Shown: positions 2,012 to 14,941 of the stretch, piece after piece
Layout of the letters: each line of letters opens with the position of its first letter
Numbering within the stretch: position 1 is the stretch's first letter
Source of the DNA: a virus
Strand: one strand, 5' to 3'
Virus record (IMG/VR): IMGVR_UViG_3300006641_000214
Coordinates: 1-21,672 of that record
DNA: 21,672 bases
The notes under the pieces: model-generated
The model's input: the letters and a program-made list of their open reading frames with translations, nothing else
The model's database searches: none
What the model was told of the DNA's origin: nothing
Made by a program: the position numbers and the translations under genes

Positions 2012-3214
2012 GTGAGTAATTCGCTACTTACTATAGACATGATCACCCGTAAGGCCCTCCAGATCCTGGAGAACAACTTGGTGATCACCCGCAACGTAAA
2101 CCGCCAGTACGATGACAGCTTTGCTGTCGAAGGTGCCAAGATCGGTTCTACGCTCCGTATCCGTCTGCCGGACCGCGCTCTGGTAACTGACGGTGCCGCC
2201 CTGCAAGTTCAGGACGACAACGAGCAGTACACCACGCTGACGGTTGCTCAACAAAAGCACATCGGCATCAACTTCACCTCCGCAGAACTCACCATGCAGT
2301 TGGATGACTTCGCAGAGCGTGTACTGAAGCCTCGCGTAAGCCAGCTTGCTGCCTCTATCGACGCAGACGTTGCTAACGCATACAAGAGCATCTATGCCTC
2401 TGTTGGTACGCCGGGTACTACCCCGTCTACCTCTCTGGTACTGCTCCAAGGTCAGCAGAAGCTGAACGAAGCGGCCGCTGGTATGGCTCCTCGCTTTGCC
2501 ACCGTCAACCCTGCTGCCAACGCCAACTTGGTAGAAGGCATGAAGGGCTTCTTCAACCCCGTTGACACGATCAGCCGCCAGTTCAAGGCCGGTATGATGG
2601 GTCAGGGCGTGCTTGGCTATGACGAGATCAATATGTCTCAGTCTATCGTCAATCACACTACCGGCTCTTGGGGTACTGGTATCACTGTCGGCACGACCGT
2701 CAGCACCCAGGGCGCTTCCACGCTGGACATCAGCTTCACCGGTTCCAGCAAGACTTGGAACGTGGGCGACGTGTTCACGATTGCCAACGTCTACGCTGTC
2801 AACCCGCAGACCCGTCAATCGACCGGTTCGCTCCAGCAGTTCGTTGTGACCGAGGCGCTTTCTGCTTCTTCCAGCGGCACGCTGAAAATCAGCCCTGCGA
2901 TCTACACTTCCAGCCAGGCTCTTGCCACGGTTGATAGCTTCCCGCAGTCTGGTGCAGCCGTCACGATGCTCGGTTCTGCCAGCAGCCAATACGCGCAAAA
3001 CCTTGTGTACCACAAGGATGCCATCACCTTCGCCACGGCCGACCTTGTTCTGCCGCAGGGCGTAGACATGGCTTCGCGTCAGGTTCACAACGGCATTTCG
3101 ATGCGTATTGTTCGTCAGTACGACATCAACAATGACCGTATGCCTTGCCGTATCGACGTTCTGTATGGCTACTCGGTCATCAGACCGCAGATGGCTTGCC
3201 GGATGTGGGGCTAA
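2012..3214 (+). CDS. Major capsid protein, P22 gp5 (coat) family
   Basis: A 400-aa protein that resembles the P22 coat family (gp5, HK97 fold, 430 aa in P22). The N-terminus, with MITRKALQILENNLVITRNV followed by a GSTLRIRLPDRALV segment, and the HIGINFTSAELTMQLDDFAE stretch are typical of this family. A Ser/Thr/Gly-rich middle (about residues 218-300) probably corresponds to the inserted surface domain seen in P22 coat. The C-terminal part includes a QGVDMASRQVHNGISMRIVR segment. Translation starts at GTG 2012, with AAGAGGTG 5-12 bases upstream. Codon use is regular and G/C-richer than in the preceding HNH gene, as expected of a highly expressed gene. It normally follows the scaffold directly; here the HNH gene separates them. 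Confidence 0.92.
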   Translation: MSNSLLTIDMITRKALQILENNLVITRNVNRQYDDSFAVEGAKIGSTLRIRLPDRALVTDGAALQVQDDNEQYTTLTVAQQKHIGINFTSAELTMQLDDFAERVLKPRVSQLAASIDADVANAYKSIYASVGTPGTTPSTSLVLLQGQQKLNEAAAGMAPRFATVNPAANANLVEGMKGFFNPVDTISRQFKAGMMGQGVLGYDEINMSQSIVNHTTGSWGTGITVGTTVSTQGASTLDISFTGSSKTWNVGDVFTIANVYAVNPQTRQSTGSLQQFVVTEALSASSSGTLKISPAIYTSSQALATVDSFPQSGAAVTMLGSASSQYAQNLVYHKDAITFATADLVLPQGVDMASRQVHNGISMRIVRQYDINNDRMPCRIDVLYGYSVIRPQMACRMWG

Positions 3215-4195: not shown

Positions 4196-4909
4196 ATGTC
4201 GTATACAGCCAAACAGCTTATTGAAGGTGCGCTGAGACTGATAGGCCAGTTGGCTGAGGGTGAGACTGTCGGATACGACACCGCCAACGACTGCCTCCTT
4301 GCCATGAACCAGATGATAAGTTCATGGTCTACGGAACGTCTTGCTGTCTTCTCTACTCAAGATCAGGTGTTGACCTGGCCGGCTAACACCATCAGCCAGA
4401 CCTTGGGACCGACCGGTTCCCTTGTTGGTCAACGGCCTATCCTTCTGGATGATTCCACCTACTTCCGTGACCCGCAGACCAACGTGTCTTACGGAATAAA
4501 AATCATCAACCAGAATCAATATAACGGGATTGCCGTTAAAACGGTTACGTCTACTTATCCACAGGTCATGTGGATCAATATGACGTACCCCGATATTGAG
4601 GTGTATGTTTACCCCAAGCCTACCAGATCATTGGAGTTCCACTTTGTTTCCGTGGAACCTTTGTCTGAGGCTGCTGACCTTAACACGGTGCTGACCTTCC
4701 CGCCTGGATACCTGAGAGCGTTCCGGTATTGCTTGGCCTGTGAGATTGCCCCCGAGTTTGGGGTAGAGCCGCCACCGCAAGTCGTCAAGGTAGCCATCAC
4801 TGCCAAGCGGGACTTGAAGCGGATCAACAATGGAAACGATGTAATGAGCCTGCCGTACTCCGTTGTGGCGAATCGTCAACGCTTCAACATCTACGCAGGG
4901 AACTACTAG
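4196..4909 (+). CDS. P22 gp4-like tail accessory factor (head-completion/adaptor protein)
   Basis: A 237-aa protein. The N-terminal segment, with an LIEGALRLIGQLAEGET block followed by DCLLAMNQMISSWSTERL, is the typical start of the P22 gp4 tail accessory factor family. This protein binds beneath the portal after packaging, closes the DNA exit channel and forms the platform for gp10. The central IKIINQNQYNGIAVKTVTST and the later VYVYPKP and FPPGYLRAFRYCLACEIAPEFG segments also fit the family. P22 gp4 is shorter (166 aa); the longer form is common in distant relatives. ATG 4196 follows AAGGGTGA, which overlaps the preceding stop. The gp10-like gene follows after four bases, as in P22, which supports the assignment. 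Confidence 0.88.
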   Translation: MSYTAKQLIEGALRLIGQLAEGETVGYDTANDCLLAMNQMISSWSTERLAVFSTQDQVLTWPANTISQTLGPTGSLVGQRPILLDDSTYFRDPQTNVSYGIKIINQNQYNGIAVKTVTSTYPQVMWINMTYPDIEVYVYPKPTRSLEFHFVSVEPLSEAADLNTVLTFPPGYLRAFRYCLACEIAPEFGVEPPPQVVKVAITAKRDLKRINNGNDVMSLPYSVVANRQRFNIYAGNY

Positions 4910-4913
4910 GTAT

Positions 4914-7781
4914 ATGAAAACCCCGATCCTCGGCGGGTATGCCGTAGCAAGGTCAGTAAACGCTGCCGACAACCGGCTGATGAACCTCTACCCCGAGGCT
5001 ACACCAGAGGGTGGTAAGTCGTCAGGGTTCCTAACCCGTTGCCCAGGGTACAAGTACCTGATGGACGTGGGATCTGGCCCTATTCGTGGCCTGTGGCAGT
5101 TTGCCAGTACGATGTATGTCGTATCGGGTATTGAACTGTACAAGGTTGATACCGGCTTTACGGCTACCCTGATCGGTTCCGTATCAGGCGCTGGTCCAGT
5201 ATCCATGTCCGACAACGGAGAACAGTTGTTTATCGCCTGTAACCCACGGTCGTACACTTACAACTTCAACACGGGTGCCTTTGCCGAGATTACGGACGAG
5301 GATTTCCCTGGTGCGGTGACGGTTGGGTTCATCAACGGGTACTTCGTATTCAACGAACCAAACAGTCAAAAGGTGTGGATCACTGAGTACCAAAACGGTG
5401 CTTCAATTGACCCGCTGGAGTTCTCCTACACTGATGCCAACCCTGACCTGCTGATCTCCCTGATGGTCAACCGGAACGAGATCTGGATGTTTGGGACCAC
5501 CTCCACCGAGGTCTGGTACTACAGCGGGGATATAGACTTCCCTCTGGCCCGTATTCAGGGTGCTTTCAACGAGATTGGCTGTGCTGCCCCCTATTCGCCG
5601 GCCAAGCTAGACAACACGGTGTTCTGGCTTGGTTCTGATCCTCGCGGTAATGCGATGGTCTACAAGGCCTCCGGTTACGGCGCTCAACGGGTATCCACCC
5701 ATGGCATCGAAAAGGTCTTGCAGAGTTATGAGTACGTTGGGGATGCCATTGGGTATTCGTACCAGCAGGAAGGCCATACCTTCTACGTCCTGACCTTCCC
5801 GTCTGCCAATGCGACGTGGTGCTTTGATGTTGCCACCAATGAATGGCATGAGCGTGGATCTTGGAAGCAGGGGCATTACAACCGCCACCGGTCCAACTGC
5901 CAAGTGAACTTCAACAACAAGATCATCCTGGGCGACTTCCAGTATGGCAAGTTGTATGAGTTTGATCTGGAGTACTACAAGGATGATGTTGGTACGCAGC
6001 GTTGGGTGCGTTCGTGGAGAGCGTTGCCGCCTAACAGCAATAACCTGAACCGTACTGCCCACCATAGCCTACAGGTGGAAATGGAGACTGGCACCAAGAC
6101 TATCCTTGCTGCTACTTCTGCTCCCATTCCTCCTTCGCCTTCTACGACGCTTTCTTACAGTGCCAAGTGGAGCGAGAACCACACCAACCCCGAGGTGGAG
6201 ATCACAAACTCAGGGCATGACATATCTGTATTGTCTAGCCCTGCAAGCACTTCATGGCTTACTGCCAGATCAATAAAGACATGGTTGTCTGGAAACTATT
6301 ACTTTGAAATAACTTACACCGTTAAAGAAGCGGGTGAACCGTTTTGGATTGGTGCTGGTGAAGCAAATTATGATTGGAACCAGCAAGTAGGTCTTCAAAT
6401 TCAAAGAAACGCAGTTGGCTATTTGGCTGACAGCGCTGGAAGTGTAAACAATGCTGTTTACAACGCAGGAATTCAAGTAGACGATCTTTCAGCTTACGGT
6501 GACGCAAACCAAGGCGACGTAATAATGGTCGCCGTTGAGTGCGGCGATACTGCGGCGTGGAAGACTGGTGGCCTTATGGGTGGCCGAGTATGGTTTGGAA
6601 GGAACGGCGTTTGGTTTAACGGTGATCCTGCCACAGTAACCGGTGGACAATCTTTGTTTACTGGTAACGGCCAGCCTTTGACTCCATATACAGCAATGGT
6701 TGGAGCGTATAGTTCTATTTCAGGGACATCTACAACCCAAAAGTTGACTGCAAACTTTGGCGACAGTGCTTTTGCTTATACTATTCCTGACGGGTTCAAG
6801 GCTTGGAACAAGCAAAGCCCGTCTACCTACAACAACTTAAACACTGGTTATATCGCTATAGGAAATGGAGCGGTAATTTCTGTGTCGGGAAGCACTGTAA
6901 CAAATCCAAACGGTTTGTTATTAACTGCTGATTTTGCCGTAACCAACTTCTCTAACACCGTTGGTAAAACATATTTTGAAGTTAGCGGAACGCTGGATGT
7001 AAGTTCACCTGGCAACCCCGCAGGAACAAATTACCCAATACTTAGTATTTGTGAAGCAGGTCTTGATTTGCTGTACAACCCCGGCGGGTTTTACCCTCCA
7101 CCTCAAACAACATACTTGTATGAAGGGTGCGGGTTTGTTTTCCTTTCTACGACGCCAAGCGTCACCGCACCAATAACCAGCATTTATTGGGGTCAGAAGT
7201 GGGATTCTGGTACGCAGTCTTACGTTTCTAACGCCAGTGCGGTATTGACGGGGATTACTGAGTGCCAGCCTGACAATCCGAATGAACGGGTCATGGTTGC
7301 AATAGACTTTGACGCTGGAAAGCTATGGTTTGGAACCAAGGGTACGTTTAGCGGTGATCCAGTTGCCGGTACTGATCCAGCATGGACGTTTACCCCAAAT
7401 AACGAACTGTACGTTTACATGGGGCTTTATGCTCCATCATCTATACAGAACCCTACCATCACGGGGTACTTTAGTCCTTCTGGTTTGCTCCATCCGATTC
7501 CAACCGGATACAACGTATTCAACAGTTCAGGGTTCTCTGCCTCATCTTCTGAGAGGATTCCCAAGGTGCTGTTGCGCTGGTCTGACGATGGCGGTCATAC
7601 TTGGTCCAACTACCATGACAAGGATCTTGGTGCCTTGGGCGAGTATTGGCACAGGGTTATCTGGCGTCGCCTTGGCATGACCAACAAGCTGAGGGATCGG
7701 GTGTACGAACTGAGCGGGGCAGATCCCGTAAAGATCACCATTACTGGTGCTGAACTCATGCTTTCGGGAACTAACTCATGA
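4914..7781 (+). CDS. P22 gp10-like packaged-DNA stabilisation protein with two inserted SPRY-like domains
   Basis: A 955-aa protein. I chose ATG 4914 (MKTPILGGYAVARSVNAADN) because gp10 homologues begin this way; an in-frame ATG at 4863 lies inside gp4. Residues 1 to about 394 are the gp10 core (ADNRLMNLYPEATPEGG, GPIRGLWQF, QGAFNEIGCAAPYS) and reach the strand HHSLQVEMETGT. Residues about 882-955 resume the core with PKVLLRWSDDGGHTWSNYHD and VIWRRLGMTNKLRDRVYEL. In ordinary homologues these parts are adjacent. The intervening 485 or so residues look like two SPRY-type beta-sandwiches: about 420-632 (GNYYFEITYT, RVWFGRNGVWFNGDPA, NFGDSAFAYTIPDGFKAWN) and about 640-870 (GKTYFEVSGT, KLWFGTKGTFSGDP). 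Removing them leaves about 470 residues; P22 gp10 is 472. gp10 sits between gp4 and the tail needle and holds packaged DNA in. The insert is more A/T-rich than the core. Confidence 0.9.
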   Translation: MKTPILGGYAVARSVNAADNRLMNLYPEATPEGGKSSGFLTRCPGYKYLMDVGSGPIRGLWQFASTMYVVSGIELYKVDTGFTATLIGSVSGAGPVSMSDNGEQLFIACNPRSYTYNFNTGAFAEITDEDFPGAVTVGFINGYFVFNEPNSQKVWITEYQNGASIDPLEFSYTDANPDLLISLMVNRNEIWMFGTTSTEVWYYSGDIDFPLARIQGAFNEIGCAAPYSPAKLDNTVFWLGSDPRGNAMVYKASGYGAQRVSTHGIEKVLQSYEYVGDAIGYSYQQEGHTFYVLTFPSANATWCFDVATNEWHERGSWKQGHYNRHRSNCQVNFNNKIILGDFQYGKLYEFDLEYYKDDVGTQRWVRSWRALPPNSNNLNRTAHHSLQVEMETGTKTILAATSAPIPPSPSTTLSYSAKWSENHTNPEVEITNSGHDISVLSSPASTSWLTARSIKTWLSGNYYFEITYTVKEAGEPFWIGAGEANYDWNQQVGLQIQRNAVGYLADSAGSVNNAVYNAGIQVDDLSAYGDANQGDVIMVAVECGDTAAWKTGGLMGGRVWFGRNGVWFNGDPATVTGGQSLFTGNGQPLTPYTAMVGAYSSISGTSTTQKLTANFGDSAFAYTIPDGFKAWNKQSPSTYNNLNTGYIAIGNGAVISVSGSTVTNPNGLLLTADFAVTNFSNTVGKTYFEVSGTLDVSSPGNPAGTNYPILSICEAGLDLLYNPGGFYPPPQTTYLYEGCGFVFLSTTPSVTAPITSIYWGQKWDSGTQSYVSNASAVLTGITECQPDNPNERVMVAIDFDAGKLWFGTKGTFSGDPVAGTDPAWTFTPNNELYVYMGLYAPSSIQNPTITGYFSPSGLLHPIPTGYNVFNSSGFSASSSERIPKVLLRWSDDGGHTWSNYHDKDLGALGEYWHRVIWRRLGMTNKLRDRVYELSGADPVKITITGAELMLSGTNS

Positions 7782-8626
7782 GCCTGACACGCATACCTGG
7801 ATCACAGGTACCGGTGCTGGAGCCTAGCGGTCTGATGAGCCGAGAGTGGTACCGGTTCCTGTACAACCTGTTTGAACTGACGGGGGGTGGATCTACGGAT
7901 GTCACCCCTGCTGAGTTGCAGGCTGAGGTGGACGCCTTAGAGGTTCAGGTGGCCGGGATTGCCACCGAGGTCAACACGCTAGAAGATAATGTCACTGCCT
8001 TGGATGCAGCCGTGGCGACCGCAGAAGCGAATGTAGCGGCTTTGGCAGACGATGTAGAACTAGTATCAGAAGGCCCAGTTCCTCAGCAGATAGACGTTAA
8101 TCAGCTATCTGATGACCTTCAGTTGTCATATTTGTCAGTGGCTGCTGTTATTCCCGACATCAACCTTGGGGCTGGATCGTTTTACGACACCACTACCCAA
8201 GCTCCTGCCGCTACCAACACAGCGTATGCTATCACCTTTAATACCACGTCATTTGAGAACAGGGTGTACCGAGGAGCCACCACCAGCCGGATCTATGTGA
8301 CTAACGCAGGGCTGTACAACTTCCAGTTCTCTGCCCAGTTGGACAACACCAGTGGTGGCAACCACCTAATGTATATTTGGGCGAGGGTGAACGGCGCTGA
8401 CGTCCCTTATTCGGCCAGCCAGGTGCGGTTGAAAAGTACGGATGGCGAGTTGGTAGCTTCTTGGAACTTCTTTATTCGTATGGCGGCTGGTGAGTACTTT
8501 GAACTGATGTATTCTGCTAGTGATACGTCTGTGCAGATATTGGCTCAAGCGGCTGCAAGCCCGGTCCCTGCCATTCCATCGGTCATCCTGACCGTGAACC
8601 AAGTGTTTAGCCCTTACGGGCATTGA
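7778..8626 (+). CDS. Putative fibre/tail protein with coiled coil and C-terminal jelly-roll domain
   Basis: A 282-aa protein overlapping the end of the gp10-like gene by ATGA. Residues 1-36 hold a short segment (EPSGLMSREWYRFLYNLFEL) that recurs at the N-terminus of many podoviral fibre-type proteins and probably anchors it to the virion. Residues about 43-95 form a heptad-like coiled coil (ELQAEVDALEVQVAGIATEV), implying a trimer. Residues about 135-282 form a beta-rich domain (AYAITFNTTSFENRVYRGAT, NAGLYNFQFSAQLD, GEYFELMYSASDTSVQIL), which looks like a C1q/TNF-type jelly roll as found at the tips of phage fibres. The likely role is a host-binding or appendage protein, possibly a tail-needle analogue given its place after gp10; the needle idea is speculation. 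Confidence 0.8.
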   Translation: MSLTRIPGSQVPVLEPSGLMSREWYRFLYNLFELTGGGSTDVTPAELQAEVDALEVQVAGIATEVNTLEDNVTALDAAVATAEANVAALADDVELVSEGPVPQQIDVNQLSDDLQLSYLSVAAVIPDINLGAGSFYDTTTQAPAATNTAYAITFNTTSFENRVYRGATTSRIYVTNAGLYNFQFSAQLDNTSGGNHLMYIWARVNGADVPYSASQVRLKSTDGELVASWNFFIRMAAGEYFELMYSASDTSVQILAQAAASPVPAIPSVILTVNQVFSPYGH

Positions 8627-8981: not shown

Positions 8982-9686
8982 ATGGGTTTTCTAAGTGATG
9001 TAGCACATGGCATAACCGGCAAGACAGGGGCTGAAGCGGCCGAACGTGCGTCTAGGCGTCAAGCCGAAGCCATCAGGCAGTCTATGGCCTACATGATGCC
9101 CTATTACAACCAAGGGCTTCAGGCGCAAAACAAGTTGATGACTTTGCTTGGCCTTAGTGGGGACACCCAGGCTGAAGGCTATGGCTCCATGGCCCGTAAC
9201 TTTGGCATGGAGGACTTTGAGGCAGACCCAGGCTATGGGTTCCGCATGTCCGAAGGCCTTAAAGCCTTGGAGCGGTCTGCCGCTGGTCGGGGTGGCGCGG
9301 CTTCTGGTGCGGCGATGAAGGGGATTACCCGTTATGGTCAGGACTTGGCTTCTCAAGAGTTTCAGAACGCTTACAACCGCTATCAGACAAATCGGGCTAA
9401 TCTGCTCAATCCTCTGTTTAACATTTCAGGTGGCGGTCGCTCTGCCGCTCAATCTATGGCTGGTGGGACTAGAGATATTGGCGACGCGGAGGCATCTGGC
9501 ATCGTAGGGGCCGCTAACGCAAGGCAGGGGGCCATGAACCAACTTATAAATACTGGAATTTCTGCTGCCATGCTTGCAAGCGGTAACCCTATGGGGGCGC
9601 TTGGGTTTATGGGAAGAGGTGGCGGTGGCGGTGGTTCATCGAGCATTTATAGCCAAAACCCCTACGCACCTGACCAGTACGCATAA
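8982..9686 (+). CDS. P22 gp7-type DNA ejection (injection) protein
   Basis: A 234-aa protein with the pattern of phage 'DNA transfer' proteins: a helical N-terminus, then the characteristic block FEADPGYGFRMSEGLKALER, AAGRGGAASGAAMKGITRYG, QDLASQEFQNAYNRYQTNRA and NLLNPLFNISGGGRSAA (residues about 80-160). The C-terminal part has a hydrophobic Ala/Gly segment (about 185-210, INTGISAAMLASGNPMGALG) and a run of six glycines. Ejection proteins of this class are carried in the capsid and enter the host envelope with the DNA, forming a conduit through the periplasm. ATG 8982 follows AGAGGTGA. It is the first of three consecutive ejection-type genes, matching the P22 order gp7-gp20-gp16. Confidence 0.85.
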   Translation: MGFLSDVAHGITGKTGAEAAERASRRQAEAIRQSMAYMMPYYNQGLQAQNKLMTLLGLSGDTQAEGYGSMARNFGMEDFEADPGYGFRMSEGLKALERSAAGRGGAASGAAMKGITRYGQDLASQEFQNAYNRYQTNRANLLNPLFNISGGGRSAAQSMAGGTRDIGDAEASGIVGAANARQGAMNQLINTGISAAMLASGNPMGALGFMGRGGGGGGSSSIYSQNPYAPDQYA

Positions 9687-9697
9687 GGAACAATGTC

Positions 9698-11272
9698 ATG
9701 GCTATCACCCCTTACGCCCTTCAAGTTCAATCTTCTCAGCTTCCCGACATTGGGAACATGCTCTTGCGTCGTCAGCAAATGCAGGCTGCTCAACAGCAAC
9801 AGCAGGTGAATGCACTGGCTTTGCAAAAAGCACAACGCGACATGGAAGAATCTGCAGCGTTCAAGAACGCTTTGCTTAAAGGGTATGACACCGAAGAAGG
9901 CAGAAATGCCATGATGCAGGCGTCCCCGAATAGAGCGCTTAAATTTTTCCAATCTCAATTGGAAGCGGAAGCGGCAAGAACCACTAAAGCGTTGAACGAT
10001 GAAAAACTCGCCAAGGCGCGTGATGACTATTTCAAAGGGCAAGCTGCTAGGATCAAAACCCCACAGCAAGCCCAGTCATACCTTGAAGCGTTGTATGCTG
10101 ACCCTGTTCTTGGTCCAAGGATGAGTAAACTAGGGTCGCTTGAAGAGGCGATTGGCGATATTCCAACAGATCCGACTCAGTTCCAGCAGTTTACCGAAAC
10201 ACTGGCACTTGGTCCGGTTGCCTTAGATTTGGCTGTTAAGCAGCGGAACGCTCAATTGTTGCAGGATCGGAGCCAAGGTGCGGCAATGGGTCGCACTCAG
10301 TTTACTGCAGAACAGCAGAACGCAAGGGACATTGTCAAGAACGCTTATTATCTGGACAGCGTCAGTGGACTGCAGGTTAGAAATCCTGCGGTTTCTGATC
10401 AACAACTGGCAACGGCTCAACAGGTTTTGGGTCAAGCTGGGGCAACTCTTGGCGAAGCCATTCCTGGGCAAACGCCTCCCATGGCCCCTCCTCCCCCTGT
10501 GCCAGAAATGACTGGCACCAAGATGCCGTTGGCACCAGGACAACAAGGCGCACCTGCCAAGATGCCTTTGCCTGCCGGTCAAACTCCCGCGGCCACACCT
10601 TTGGTACAAGGCAGGGCATTGACACAAGGAGAGGTTCCTGCAGCAAGGGCTGAAGCAAGAGAGGCCACAGAACAGGCCAAAATCAATGCCAGGTTGAAAA
10701 CCGAAGAACCTGATGTTAGATCCGGGCTTTCATCCACTACCGATCTGACGAACGGAACTATCCGTCAAATTCGATCCATAATGGACAATCCTGACCTTGA
10801 AGATGTCACAGGAAACATTGAAGGGCTGTTTAAGACCTTTATGGGACTTACGGGTCAAGGAAATGCGAATGTCAACTCTACCATCGAAGGGCTTAAGTCC
10901 AAGGCATGGTTGAAGAGCATTCAGTCATTTGGCAAAGGTAGCGGGTTGTCGCCTATTACCGATGTCGAAGGTGAAAAACTTGAAAAAGCCTATGCATCGC
11001 TTGATCAAAGTCAAAGCACAGAACAGTTCAAAAAGAACTTAGAAAACTTTATGAAACAGTTGCGTTCGTCGCAATCCGCTGTGATAAACGCTTACAACCG
11101 CAAATATGGAAAATTAAACATCCCTGATTGGCAACCTATGTCAATCACTGGAAGTTTTCCAGAAGCTGCGATTAAAGATTTGCGGTCTGATCCGTCGAAA
11201 GAAGCCAAAAAAGAATTCAACGATCTTTTTGGAGAAGGAACTGCTGACTACTTTTTGAAAGGGGCAAGGTGA
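9698..11272 (+). CDS. Putative DNA ejection/internal virion protein (P22 gp20 position)
   Basis: A 524-aa helical protein in the second position of the ejection block. Residues about 25-60 are Gln-rich (MQAAQQQQQVNALALQKAQR), as in many internal virion proteins. Residues about 255-310 are a Pro/Ala/Met linker with an imperfect repeat (TKMPLAPGQQ then AKMPLPAGQT). The C-terminal third is a helical domain (IQSFGKGSGLSPITDVEGEK, followed by LEKAYASLDQSQSTEQFKKN) that recurs in phage virion proteins. The extreme C-terminus (DPSKEAKKEFNDLFGEGTAD) matches a 'FDxxYGxGAAxxxL'-like tail seen in the same class. By position and architecture it probably corresponds to gp20. AAGGA overlaps the previous stop and serves ATG 9698. 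Confidence 0.78.
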   Translation: MAITPYALQVQSSQLPDIGNMLLRRQQMQAAQQQQQVNALALQKAQRDMEESAAFKNALLKGYDTEEGRNAMMQASPNRALKFFQSQLEAEAARTTKALNDEKLAKARDDYFKGQAARIKTPQQAQSYLEALYADPVLGPRMSKLGSLEEAIGDIPTDPTQFQQFTETLALGPVALDLAVKQRNAQLLQDRSQGAAMGRTQFTAEQQNARDIVKNAYYLDSVSGLQVRNPAVSDQQLATAQQVLGQAGATLGEAIPGQTPPMAPPPPVPEMTGTKMPLAPGQQGAPAKMPLPAGQTPAATPLVQGRALTQGEVPAARAEAREATEQAKINARLKTEEPDVRSGLSSTTDLTNGTIRQIRSIMDNPDLEDVTGNIEGLFKTFMGLTGQGNANVNSTIEGLKSKAWLKSIQSFGKGSGLSPITDVEGEKLEKAYASLDQSQSTEQFKKNLENFMKQLRSSQSAVINAYNRKYGKLNIPDWQPMSITGSFPEAAIKDLRSDPSKEAKKEFNDLFGEGTADYFLKGAR

Positions 11273-13110
11273 TGGCAGAGGCGGCTAAAAATCGTTTTGA
11301 AAAATACGTCGATTCTGAATCGTCTACTCAACCCAAAGAAAACCGTTTTTCCAAATACGTTGAGTCAGAATCGGCACCATCCCCCAAGAGTACCGGTCCC
11401 AAGTCTTATCAATGGGGAGAAGTCCCTGGGGCTATGCTCGGGAATGTTGGTAAGAGCGGAGAAAAGTTTTACACGGGACTGGCAGAAGCGGTTACCAATC
11501 CGGCGCAAACGGTTGACGCGATTGACACTGCGCTGACTAACCTTACGAACTTTCTTTTCCAGAAACCCCTCGCTATGGGAGGGGAAACGAAAAAAGTAGA
11601 AGAATCCAACAAGTTCATGAAAGAGATGAAAAATGCTCTTTTGAACCGGTATGGCGGTGAAGAAGAACTGAAACGGACTCTTGCCGAAGATCCGATTGGG
11701 GTGCTTGCCGATGTTTCCACGGCGTTCAGTGGCGGTGCCATGGTGGCTCCTAAAGCGGCAACAGGTGCTCTGAAAACAGCAGCCAAGTTCACAGACCCTC
11801 TGACCCCTGCTGTCGGTGTTCTTGGTGCCACGGGGTCAATGATTGGGTCAGGCGCTGAGTGGATGAAAAACGTGGCAGACCCCAAAGCTGCAGCCCTGAT
11901 GAAAATGGCTGACGGCAAGGCTCCTGACATCCTGAATGCGCTGACCAACTATCAGACGTATGTCAAAGGCAGTGTTCCAACGGCAGCGCAAGCAGCATCG
12001 GCAGCTAACGTGCCTACGTTCACCTCGTTCGCGGCCTCTGCTCAGAACGTGCTTCCGAATGCGTATTCCAGCCGCGTTTTGGAGCAAGCTGAAGCCCAGC
12101 GGAGAGCACTTGGCACGGTGGCTAAGACTGAAGCCGACTTGGCTGCTGCCAAACAAGCAAGGAAAACTGAAGCCGACGTCAATTACGAGGAAGCCCAGCA
12201 AGCAATCCCTCGGGCTGATCCTGCTTTGGCAACCATCTGGCAAGATCCGTTTGTTCAGAAAGTCGCCCCAGAAGCAGCAGATTTGTCTCAGTCCATGGGC
12301 TTTACGTTTAAGCAGAACCCGATTGGGTATCTTCACAACGTCAAGACTCGACTGGACGCGGCCATCACTGCCGAAAAAGATGCTACCACTCAACGGCAAA
12401 TGCTCAAGAAGCGCGATGAACTTGTGGGGTGGATGGAAAACAAATCCCCTTCTTATCGAAAAGCGCGTGAGAGATTTGCCGAGCAGAGTGGTCCTATCAA
12501 CCAGATGGAAGTCGGACAGTACCTTGAAAACAAACTGATACCGGCTTTGATGATGGAAGAGGCGACCCCAGGGTTAAGGGCAGAAGTGTTTGCCCGAGCC
12601 TTGGAGGAAGCACCTGCCACTTTGAGAAAGTCTACGGGGTTTCAGCGGTATCAGAAACTGACTGATGTATTGACCCCAGAGCAAATGAACGTAATCGAAG
12701 GGATTCGAGATGATTTGGCTCGATCTCATATTACGAAATATCAAGCTGGAAACGCAAAGGCCTCCAAAACGGTAGCTTATGATTTAAAAGACTTTTACAA
12801 AAACGTAGTTGAAGATGTAAAAGCGCCTACCATGGTCAATCCATTGGTGACTCTGACGAACGACATCATCAAACGCACCAAGGGGGCGATCAATTCCAGG
12901 ATGGCGGTGGAATTGGCTGAGGCTATGCTTAACCCAGAAACCGCCGCAGAAGCCTTGCGTAGTGCCATGGCTAGAGACAAACGGTTGAGCCGATTGGCGG
13001 CTGTACCCAAGGCTGCAGGCAAAGCAGCCATGGGAGTAGCCAGGAGAACTCCTCCTGCTGCAATTAACATGCTGTCCGGGGAAGAAAACCAAAACGCATT
13101 GAACCAATGA
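11272..13110 (+). CDS. Putative DNA ejection/internal virion protein (P22 gp16 position)
   Basis: A 612-aa Ala/Lys/Glu-rich, mainly helical protein in the third position of the ejection block. GTG 11269 and ATG 11272 are adjacent possible starts; AAGGGG at 11259-11264 fits ATG 11272 with a 7-base spacer, and TGATG couples it to the preceding gene. The N-terminus holds a tandem motif: NRFEKYVDSES and NRFSKYVESES. Residues about 140-195 are Gly/Ala-rich and mildly hydrophobic (AFSGGAMVAPKAATGA, GVLGATGSMIGSG) and could insert into membrane. Residues about 195-520 are long helices, and a basic Ala-rich tail follows (SRLAAVPKAAGKAAMGVARR). No lytic transglycosylase or protease motif is visible. 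The role is inferred from position and composition. Confidence 0.75.
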   Translation: MAEAAKNRFEKYVDSESSTQPKENRFSKYVESESAPSPKSTGPKSYQWGEVPGAMLGNVGKSGEKFYTGLAEAVTNPAQTVDAIDTALTNLTNFLFQKPLAMGGETKKVEESNKFMKEMKNALLNRYGGEEELKRTLAEDPIGVLADVSTAFSGGAMVAPKAATGALKTAAKFTDPLTPAVGVLGATGSMIGSGAEWMKNVADPKAAALMKMADGKAPDILNALTNYQTYVKGSVPTAAQAASAANVPTFTSFAASAQNVLPNAYSSRVLEQAEAQRRALGTVAKTEADLAAAKQARKTEADVNYEEAQQAIPRADPALATIWQDPFVQKVAPEAADLSQSMGFTFKQNPIGYLHNVKTRLDAAITAEKDATTQRQMLKKRDELVGWMENKSPSYRKARERFAEQSGPINQMEVGQYLENKLIPALMMEEATPGLRAEVFARALEEAPATLRKSTGFQRYQKLTDVLTPEQMNVIEGIRDDLARSHITKYQAGNAKASKTVAYDLKDFYKNVVEDVKAPTMVNPLVTLTNDIIKRTKGAINSRMAVELAEAMLNPETAAEALRSAMARDKRLSRLAAVPKAAGKAAMGVARRTPPAAINMLSGEENQNALNQ

Positions 13111-13119
13111 GGATCTGAC

Positions 13120-14103
13120 ATGGCTATTTTGACCCCAATGCCGGTGATGCAATTCTTCGATGACAACGGTGATCCGTTGGCCGGAGGAAAGCTGTACACC
13201 TACGAAGCCGGCACCACCACCCCCTTGGCGACCTACACCGACGAAGGCGGCGGTACAGCCAACACCAACCCGGTGATCCTTGATGCTGCTGGTCGGGCCA
13301 ACATTTGGGTGGCTACGACCGACTTGTACTACTGGGAACTGGAAGACTCTGCCGGCAACCAGATCTGGACGGCTGACAACATTGGTCAGGTGACAGGTAC
13401 GGCTGATGTGGTTGGCCCTGCATCCTCTACCGACAACGCCGTGGTGCGGTTTGACGGGGTGACGGGCAAGGTCATCCAAAACAGTTCCGTGACGATCTCT
13501 GACGCAGGGGCTGTCAGTGCTGCCTCTCTGGCCCTGACGACTGCCCTGCCGCTCTCCAGTGGTGGCACAGGATCTACGACAGCCTCTGGTGCCCGTACCA
13601 ACCTTGGTCTTGGGGCTTTGGCGGTCAAAGGGGATGGCGACTACGGAGACATCACGGTATCGGCCTCTGGTGCTACCTGGACGATTGATGCGGATGCTGT
13701 GACCCGTACCAAAATCATCAACGGTGCTGTTGATGGAACCAAGTTGTCAGGCGCTCAGACTGGTGATCCTCCTGTATATGGCATCCGGGCTTGGGTTAGC
13801 TTTGACGGAACGGGTGCTGGTGGAACTAGGACAATTAGAGCGTCTGGCAACGTGTCTTCTGTAACAGACACAGGAACAGGTCAATACGACATAAATTTTA
13901 CGACAGCAATGCAGGACGCCAATTATGCGGTTTCTGGAATGGCCGGAGGCGTAGGTGGAAGTAGCACAAGCCCTGACATTCTTGTTGCTTTCCCTTCGTC
14001 TGGATCTCCTACTTACAGCGTTTCTAGCGTTTCAATACTTGTTTATAACGTAAACAATGGCCCTACTGACCGTCCTTATGTCAGCATCATGGTTATCAGG
14101 TGA
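13120..14103 (+). CDS. Tail fibre protein (modular)
   Basis: A 327-aa fibre protein. Residues 1-70 form a widely shared phage N-terminal domain (QFFDDNGDPLAGGKLYTYEA, then NPVILDAAGRANIWV), which attaches fibres or spikes to the virion. Residues about 95-130 hold strand repeats (DNAVVRFDGVTGKVIQNSSV, ISDAGAVSAASL), and residues about 145-165 the common fibre repeat LSSGGTGSTTASGARTNLGL. The C-terminal domain (about 220-327, IRAWVSFDGTGAGGTRTIRA and GQYDINFTTAMQDANYAVSG) is a beta domain found at the distal ends of fibres and is the likely receptor-binding part. Its DNA (from about 13780) is clearly more A/T-rich than the first two thirds, which suggests domain exchange. GAGGA precedes ATG 13120. 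Confidence 0.87.
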   Translation: MAILTPMPVMQFFDDNGDPLAGGKLYTYEAGTTTPLATYTDEGGGTANTNPVILDAAGRANIWVATTDLYYWELEDSAGNQIWTADNIGQVTGTADVVGPASSTDNAVVRFDGVTGKVIQNSSVTISDAGAVSAASLALTTALPLSSGGTGSTTASGARTNLGLGALAVKGDGDYGDITVSASGATWTIDADAVTRTKIINGAVDGTKLSGAQTGDPPVYGIRAWVSFDGTGAGGTRTIRASGNVSSVTDTGTGQYDINFTTAMQDANYAVSGMAGGVGGSSTSPDILVAFPSSGSPTYSVSSVSILVYNVNNGPTDRPYVSIMVIR

Positions 14104-14774: not shown

Positions 14775-14941
14775 AAGAGTTTGTTAAAGCCCGTTTAAAA
14801 GAGCCTTCCACTTGGAGGGGTATCATCCTGCTGTTGACCGCTGCTGGTGTTCCGATTGCCCCCCAAATGGGTGAGGCTATTATCTGCGTAGGGCTGGCCT
14901 TGGCTGGCGGGGTAGGGGTGGTGACCCCTGACAAGAAATGA
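14771..14941 (+). CDS. Putative holin, two TM segments (56 aa)
   Basis: A 56-aa protein starting at ATG 14771 (the longer frame from 14705 overlaps the previous gene). A basic N-terminus (KEFVKARLKEPSTWRG) is followed by hydrophobic segments at about 17-30 (GIILLLTAAGVPIA) and 34-51 (GEAIICVGLALAGGVGVV), then a short charged C-terminus (TPDKK). The 'RLxEPSTWRGIxxL' opening and two-helix plan fit small class II phage holins, which open the inner membrane to release the lysozyme. It overlaps the lysozyme start by ATGA. This is the better holin candidate of the two membrane proteins. Confidence 0.85.
   Translation: MKEFVKARLKEPSTWRGIILLLTAAGVPIAPQMGEAIICVGLALAGGVGVVTPDKK

Follow-up and report, generated by a model that had tools for sequence, protein, structure and literature searches.

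Tandem SPRY domains in the gp10-type tail hub of a P22-type podovirus point to an exchangeable module slot that is accompanied by split gp10 genes in relatives

Introduction

The tail hub protein gp10 of phage P22 is present in the virion as a ring of six copies and seals the packaged DNA. Host recognition by podoviruses is usually ascribed to tailspikes and fibres, and DNA retention to gp10. Exchangeable surface domains are known on other conserved virion proteins, for example the optional Ig-like domains of T4 Hoc. SPRY/B30.2 domains (PF00622) of RanBP9/10, TRIM proteins, RyR and DDX1 form another superfamily relevant here, and in jumbo phages SPRY has been described as a lectin domain of the virion with a concanavalin fold; SPRY and LamG occur there on tail fibres and virion components (PMC7824862).

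Here we analyse a gp10-type gene in a 21,672-nt stretch of viral DNA (IMG/VR record IMGVR_UViG_3300006641_000214, positions 1 to 21,672; hereafter the window). In core sequence, fold and gene order it is like P22 gp10, Sf6 gp8 and the tail hub of Pam1 and Pan3 (Hc3, tubeB). However, those hubs have a short connector, no longer than about 50 residues, where the window protein has a 487-residue SPRY pair and its relatives have other modules or a split gene. The two units of the window share profile homology with SPRY/B30.2 proteins, but they are much diverged, stand in tandem and lie inside a virion ring protein. As in jumbo phages the superfamily is found on particles, here in the tail hub of a podovirus, at one fixed position that is used repeatedly. 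Compared with the Ig-like domains of the T4 Hoc type, the inserted domains are likewise optional and exchangeable, whereas their folds differ and they sit on a tail hub whose gene is divided in two at the slot in some relatives. Searches of the open-access literature yielded no description of SPRY within gp10, of a gp10 slot or of a split gp10.

Results

The ORF at 4863-7781 has an ATG at position 4914 and gives a protein of 955 aa (4914..7781, plus strand), annotated as a gp10-type tail hub/head closure protein Hc3 with a tandem SPRY insert. The annotation rests on phrog_578 (head closure Hc3), which matches residues 2-409 with E 2.2e-121, on PDB entries 9vyg and 7eeq at the level of sequence and on 8u10, 8eap and 7sg7 at the level of fold. 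The order coat – adaptor (gp4) – gp10 – needle – ejection proteins is present in the window, the needle match being weak. Specifically, a scaffold gene starts at 557, the coat gene lies at 2012-3214, and a gp4-like head-tail adaptor (4196..4909, plus strand; phrog_12985, E 2.7e-46; phrog_637 head-tail adaptor Ad3, E 1.9e-4) is found directly upstream of gp10. The gp10 stop is overlapped by the gene for a needle-like protein (7778..8626, plus strand; phrog_1219 tail needle, E 1.3e-3). Ejection-type proteins follow at 8982-13110 and an endolysin gene starts at 14938. This gene content identifies the window as part of a P22-type podovirus genome. A separate tail fibre candidate (13120..14103, plus strand; phrog_11355 tail fiber protein, E 2.2e-14; phrog_26190) is another likely receptor binder of this phage. 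Relatives at about 60% core identity come from a Rhodoferax MAG and from Rhizorhabdus histidinilytica. Between the scaffold and coat genes lies an HNH homing-type endonuclease gene on the minus strand (1321-1950; phrog_59, E 7e-17). Only about 30 nt are present at the equivalent site of the related locus L003, so the HNH gene looks like a recent mobile insertion.

An earlier, sequence-only reading of the window had placed a gp10 core at both ends of the protein, and this is what we find: the phrog_578 match extends to residue 409 and similarity to gp10 homologues resumes from about residue 882 (phmmer, alignment). The structures of cyanopodophage Pan3 (9vyg) and of Pam1 (7eeq) align in two blocks, query residues 6/7-350 and 882-944, and in those chains merely ~50-65 residues separate the two blocks. 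Top matches in Foldseek with an alignment-based model were P22 gp10 (8u10, 8eap), Pan3, Sf6 (7sg7) and Pam1. By homology to P22 gp10, we infer that the window protein would form a hexameric ring sealing the packaged DNA. Alignments of 14 and 30 homologues define the N-terminal core (beta-propeller, residues 1-393; 4914..6092, plus strand). A survey of the gap at 100 homologous loci bounds the insert at residues 394-880 (6093..7553, plus strand), in place of a connector of ~6 residues. The C-terminal core follows (residues 881-955; 7554..7778, plus strand); in the split relatives described below it is an ORF of its own. The homologue alignment thus gives a single insertion site between core residues 393 and 881. 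The extent proposed earlier holds within ~10 nt, while the length has to be corrected from 485 to 487 residues. The two core segments had also been expected to be nearly adjacent in ordinary homologues, and in 48 of the 100 loci they indeed are (4-10 residues between them). Ten phage relatives examined have gp10 of ordinary length (436-516 aa counted from the match start), no single match to a phage record covers at least 80% of the query, and normal-length gp10 exists without the insert.

The insert had been described as A/T-richer than the core, with 38-43% G+C against 55-57%. The direction is correct and the figures were overstated: G+C is 46-47% in the insert (42-50% in 300-base windows) and 53.8% in each core part. 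The contrast is strong at third codon positions, where GC is 0.42 in the insert versus 0.63-0.66 in the core, which is consistent with a foreign origin of the insert.

The same reading saw two diverged SPRY-like units in the insert and quoted their motifs, both of which are present (RVWFGRNGVWFNGDPA; KLWFGTKGTFSGDP). The units are indeed diverged from each other (25% identity in BLASTP of unit 1 against unit 2, E 5e-6), and their identity as SPRY domains is supported by profile, PDB-sequence and comparative tests. Pfam SPRY (PF00622) scores 19.2 bits on residues 394-880, below its cut-off of 26.3, and 24.9 bits on the close relative L002; a Pfam search with each window unit by itself gave no match above threshold. 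The sub-threshold score of the window sequence, together with a partial AlphaFold2 model of the insert, would favour a reading in which the insert is an unrelated beta-rich region or an ordinary part of the gp10 core. We regard the chance of this as close to negligible, given that normal-length gp10 occurs without the insert and that the insert is homologous over its length to that of L003 (29% identity, E 2e-24), which itself passes Pfam SPRY with 56 bits in two stretches. Against it stand also the profiles. An independent phage SPRY profile that started from L003 and L107, whose inserts pass Pfam, and left out the allele family of the window gives 80.3 bits for unit 1 (residues 429-630; 6198..6803, plus strand) and 58.7 bits for unit 2 (residues 653-867; 6870..7514, plus strand; weak Pfam SPRY match, E 1.3e-3), while the top score of 2000 shuffled inserts is 9.9 bits. 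When a wider profile of 44 phage units, both window units among them, was compared with the PDB, RanBP10 was matched with E 4.6e-17, and RanBP9, TRIM9, RyR, DDX1, SPSB3 and ASH2 were found as well; 31 of the 44 units match PF00622 at E 1e-3 or better. On the strength of the independent-profile scores, the homology to L003 and the PDB-sequence matches of the wider profile, both window units belong to the SPRY superfamily despite the sub-threshold Pfam score.

Structure prediction gave a pLDDT of 32 from the single sequence and a mean of 54 from the alignment, the insert being modelled partially and mostly at 30-80; this moderate to low confidence is too weak to establish the fold. Fold matches were obtained for the model as a whole and include RyR, a tandem-SPRY protein. 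In the alignment-based AlphaFold2 model, predicted strands 385-396 and 879-890 border the insert, which fits an insertion at the tip of a beta-hairpin. Triosephosphate isomerase and internalin, obtained as PDB matches of the raw insert, are chance matches, and the insert searched against phage records gave no match.

Comparison of close relatives separates the history of the insert from that of the core. Between the window and L003 the core has a nucleotide identity of 0.92/0.91 and the C-terminal core one of 0.89, whereas each SPRY unit reaches 0.45, and the shift is abrupt at the insert junctions. Third-position identity follows the same course (0.82/0.80 in the core, 0.32/0.30 in the SPRY units, 0.72 in the C-terminal core). 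Such a drop at silent sites indicates recombinational replacement and not fast evolution of the protein in place. Comparison with L005 and L014 gives a similar, weaker pattern, and in the pair L010 and L011 dS is 0.34 in the core, 2.8 in the insert and 0.21 in the C-terminal segment. As judged from these alignments, the modules are exchanged as whole cassettes by recombination with the gp10 core staying put. Divergence of the insert in place was considered for the window and L003 and rejected, given a third-position identity of ~0.31 for the insert versus 0.72-0.82 for its flanks. Within one allele family (window versus L002), 22 of the 68 amino-acid changes fall at residues 470-529 of SPRY unit 1, a clustering reached in 0 of 5000 shuffles. 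Overall the insert is under purifying selection, with dN/dS ~0.13 in the same comparison. Within the needle-like gene, similarity to L003 breaks off once more at window positions 7984-8173 and returns at 69% identity, which marks a second mosaic breakpoint just downstream of gp10.

The 100 surveyed loci are viral contigs and phage records in which both gp10 core halves could be placed; the best 80 of at least 590 relatives were kept, so that they sample gp10 diversity non-randomly and include some near-copies. Besides the 48 loci with adjacent halves, the spacing is 34-86 residues in 42 and 298-492 residues in 10. The middle group consists mostly of short repeats of the type LLTENDEYLITENGDYLI. 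Their E-x-G-D signature recurs about every 8-10 residues (e.g. L037, L067, L076, L083 and L065), and they may form a short stalk of beta-repeats or a strip for docking. An SPRY pair is the cargo in the window/L001, L002, L005 and L014, with a more distant pair in L003/L004. L010, L011, L015 and L228 have a GH16/LamG-like domain plus SPRY, the GH16 matches being below the Pfam cut-off. In L048 the slot is occupied by a glycine-rich domain (PF21722, Gly_rich_2) that also matches minor-tail and tail-fibre PHROGs, and this genome has a second glycine-rich ORF right behind a tail-fibre-like gene. A prophage of Acinetobacter haemolyticus (L209, 5183-5710) has BspA-type leucine-rich repeats there (PF13306, 53.9 bits). 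Judging by this range of cargo, the gp10 connector is a plug-in slot that takes unrelated modules in related phages. In a quick tree of 99 N-terminal cores the long unsplit SPRY proteins L001, L002, L004, L005 and L014 form one clade with support 100, and the filled or empty state of the slot changes many times. The sequence-only reading was right about the core, the SPRY domains and the single site; it missed that the slot is general and that the gp10 gene is split in other lineages.

In L010, L011, L015 and L228 the reading frame stops after the module and a separate ORF of 81 residues, in another frame, encodes the C-terminal segment of gp10 (L010:5207-5452, L011:2691-2936, L015:1756-2001). 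The junction between the N-part and the C-ORF is an overlapping ATGA in L010, L011 and L015. L048 is split too: its 76-residue C-ORF (5442-5672) has an ATG a few bases downstream of the N-part. The prophages of A. silvestris (L207) and A. halotolerans (L221) have N-parts of 652-665 residues and a C-ORF of ~66 residues; the inserts of these two complete Acinetobacter split genes gave no Pfam match. In A. haemolyticus L209 gp10 runs off the contig within the repeats, and a 72-residue C-ORF is on another contig. Across the split loci the separate ORFs (66-81 aa) encode only the C-terminal gp10 segment. Seven other Acinetobacter genomes have an unsplit gp10 frame of 468-491 residues with both core halves. 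The split state requires three changes on the quick tree of 99 N-cores, even if the count is limited to strongly supported branches, and L174, with a masked run of N at the slot, was excluded from the count. Read from this tree, gp10 is split in three independent lineages, prophages of cultivated Acinetobacter included. L053 has 87% core DNA identity to L048, but its slot is six residues long and its gp10 a single continuous chain; module and split have therefore been gained or lost together fairly recently. An assembly artefact was considered and rejected, as the junction recurs in L010, L011, L015 and L228 from several samples and in cultivated Acinetobacter prophages. The C-ORF is under purifying selection (L010 versus L011, dN 0.018, dS 0.21), which indicates a working protein. 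Most simply, it would be a second chain that completes the C-terminal domain of gp10. In all four loci checked the C-segment is in a different frame with its own ATG, and a separate C-terminal protein appears a simpler reading than a programmed frameshift or read-through joining the halves.

SPRY modules are also carried by other virion proteins. In L117 (2902-7653) and L118 (a 51-kb contig) an SPRY pair 49% identical to the window insert lies in an unrelated 1584-aa virion protein (phrog_511, 'internal virion protein'). Going by this identity, it is a case of module transfer between unrelated structural proteins. In L108 (4539-7103) the two halves of a phrog_437 virion protein are separated by three or more SPRY domains, which from the layout is an insertion like that in gp10 in a different structural protein. 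More carriers are a head-tail adaptor in L122 (phrog_637) and a tail protein in L161 (phrog_376).

Discussion

We consider it fairly probable that the SPRY pair in the exchangeable gp10 slot serves as neck-borne accessory adhesins that are swapped by recombination. In a gp10 ring (six copies in P22) the conserved propeller would line the DNA channel and the tip of the connector hairpin would be on the ring exterior, so that about 12 SPRY domains would surround the tail neck of each virion. According to PMC10386132, the gp10 propeller is best conserved where it lines the interior of the tube, with no outside exposure, from which we infer that the variable hairpin would be on the outer side. The SPRY domains would bind a glycan or protein of the host surface, keeping the particle in place during engagement of the tail fibre or needle, and recombination would swap the modules when hosts change. 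In the split form the C-terminal gp10 strands would come as a separate chain completing the domain. Cassette exchange between close relatives and the adhesin-type cargo at the same site strengthen the case for adhesins. Further support comes from the SPRY pair in other virion proteins, from the lectin-type description of SPRY in jumbo phages (PMC7824862) and from the clustered changes in SPRY unit 1. It is important to note that this phage has a tail-fibre gene of its own and would not a priori require a further adhesin; moreover, the insert is under overall purifying selection and positive selection is not visible, which speaks against adhesins. Extended to the relatives, the proposal is more tentative, with chances somewhat short of even: the gp10 hub slot could be a neck-borne carrier of interchangeable receptor-binding modules, split hubs being two-chain proteins with the module at a free C-terminus.

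The main rival is that the SPRY pair and the other modules are a docking platform that anchors the phage's own fibres or a virion protein to the neck, the module changing when the partner fibre changes. In podoviruses the attachment sites of fibres and spikes are close to the gp4/gp10 ring, tubeA being a major fibre attachment point (PMC10386132); eukaryotic SPRY domains bind proteins, and the mosaic breaks between the window and L003 are also found within the downstream needle-like gene. However, relatives with a six-residue connector do without such a platform, the cargo of other lineages (Gly-rich, LRR, GH16/LamG-like) is adhesin-like and not adaptor-like, and another phage has a similar SPRY pair in a virion protein unrelated to gp10, so we hold docking to be rather unlikely. 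Adhesion could also be environmental, as has been proposed for the Ig-like domains on T4 Hoc: the domains would bind glycans of mucus, biofilm or particles and raise encounter rates without host specificity. Optional presence, variable cargo and carbohydrate-type folds would suit this role, but fast cassette exchange among near-identical cores suggests a specific, changing target, and we give environmental adhesion a small chance. A tolerated passenger, i.e. modules that come and go neutrally at a permissive hairpin tip through promiscuous recombination, could account for a slot that roughly half of the loci leave empty and that flips between presence and absence many times on the tree. This is nevertheless very unlikely: the frames are open, dN/dS is well below 1 for the insert and the C-ORF, it is binding-type folds and not random sequence that arrive repeatedly, and the split C-ORF is retained in three lineages.

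If the slot does carry adhesins, it would be a second, overlooked place of attachment evolution, accompanied by three gene fissions, and host recognition would have a neck-borne component distinct from tailspikes and fibres. Neck genes would then be worth reading for host prediction, and what now counts as a hypothetical protein, the small C-ORF of split gp10, would become an essential, testable structural piece. Note that in L022 (MW202573, 465-2504) a 2040-nt gene annotated as 'DNA repair protein' is located between the adaptor and gp10 genes and may encode another neck appendage.
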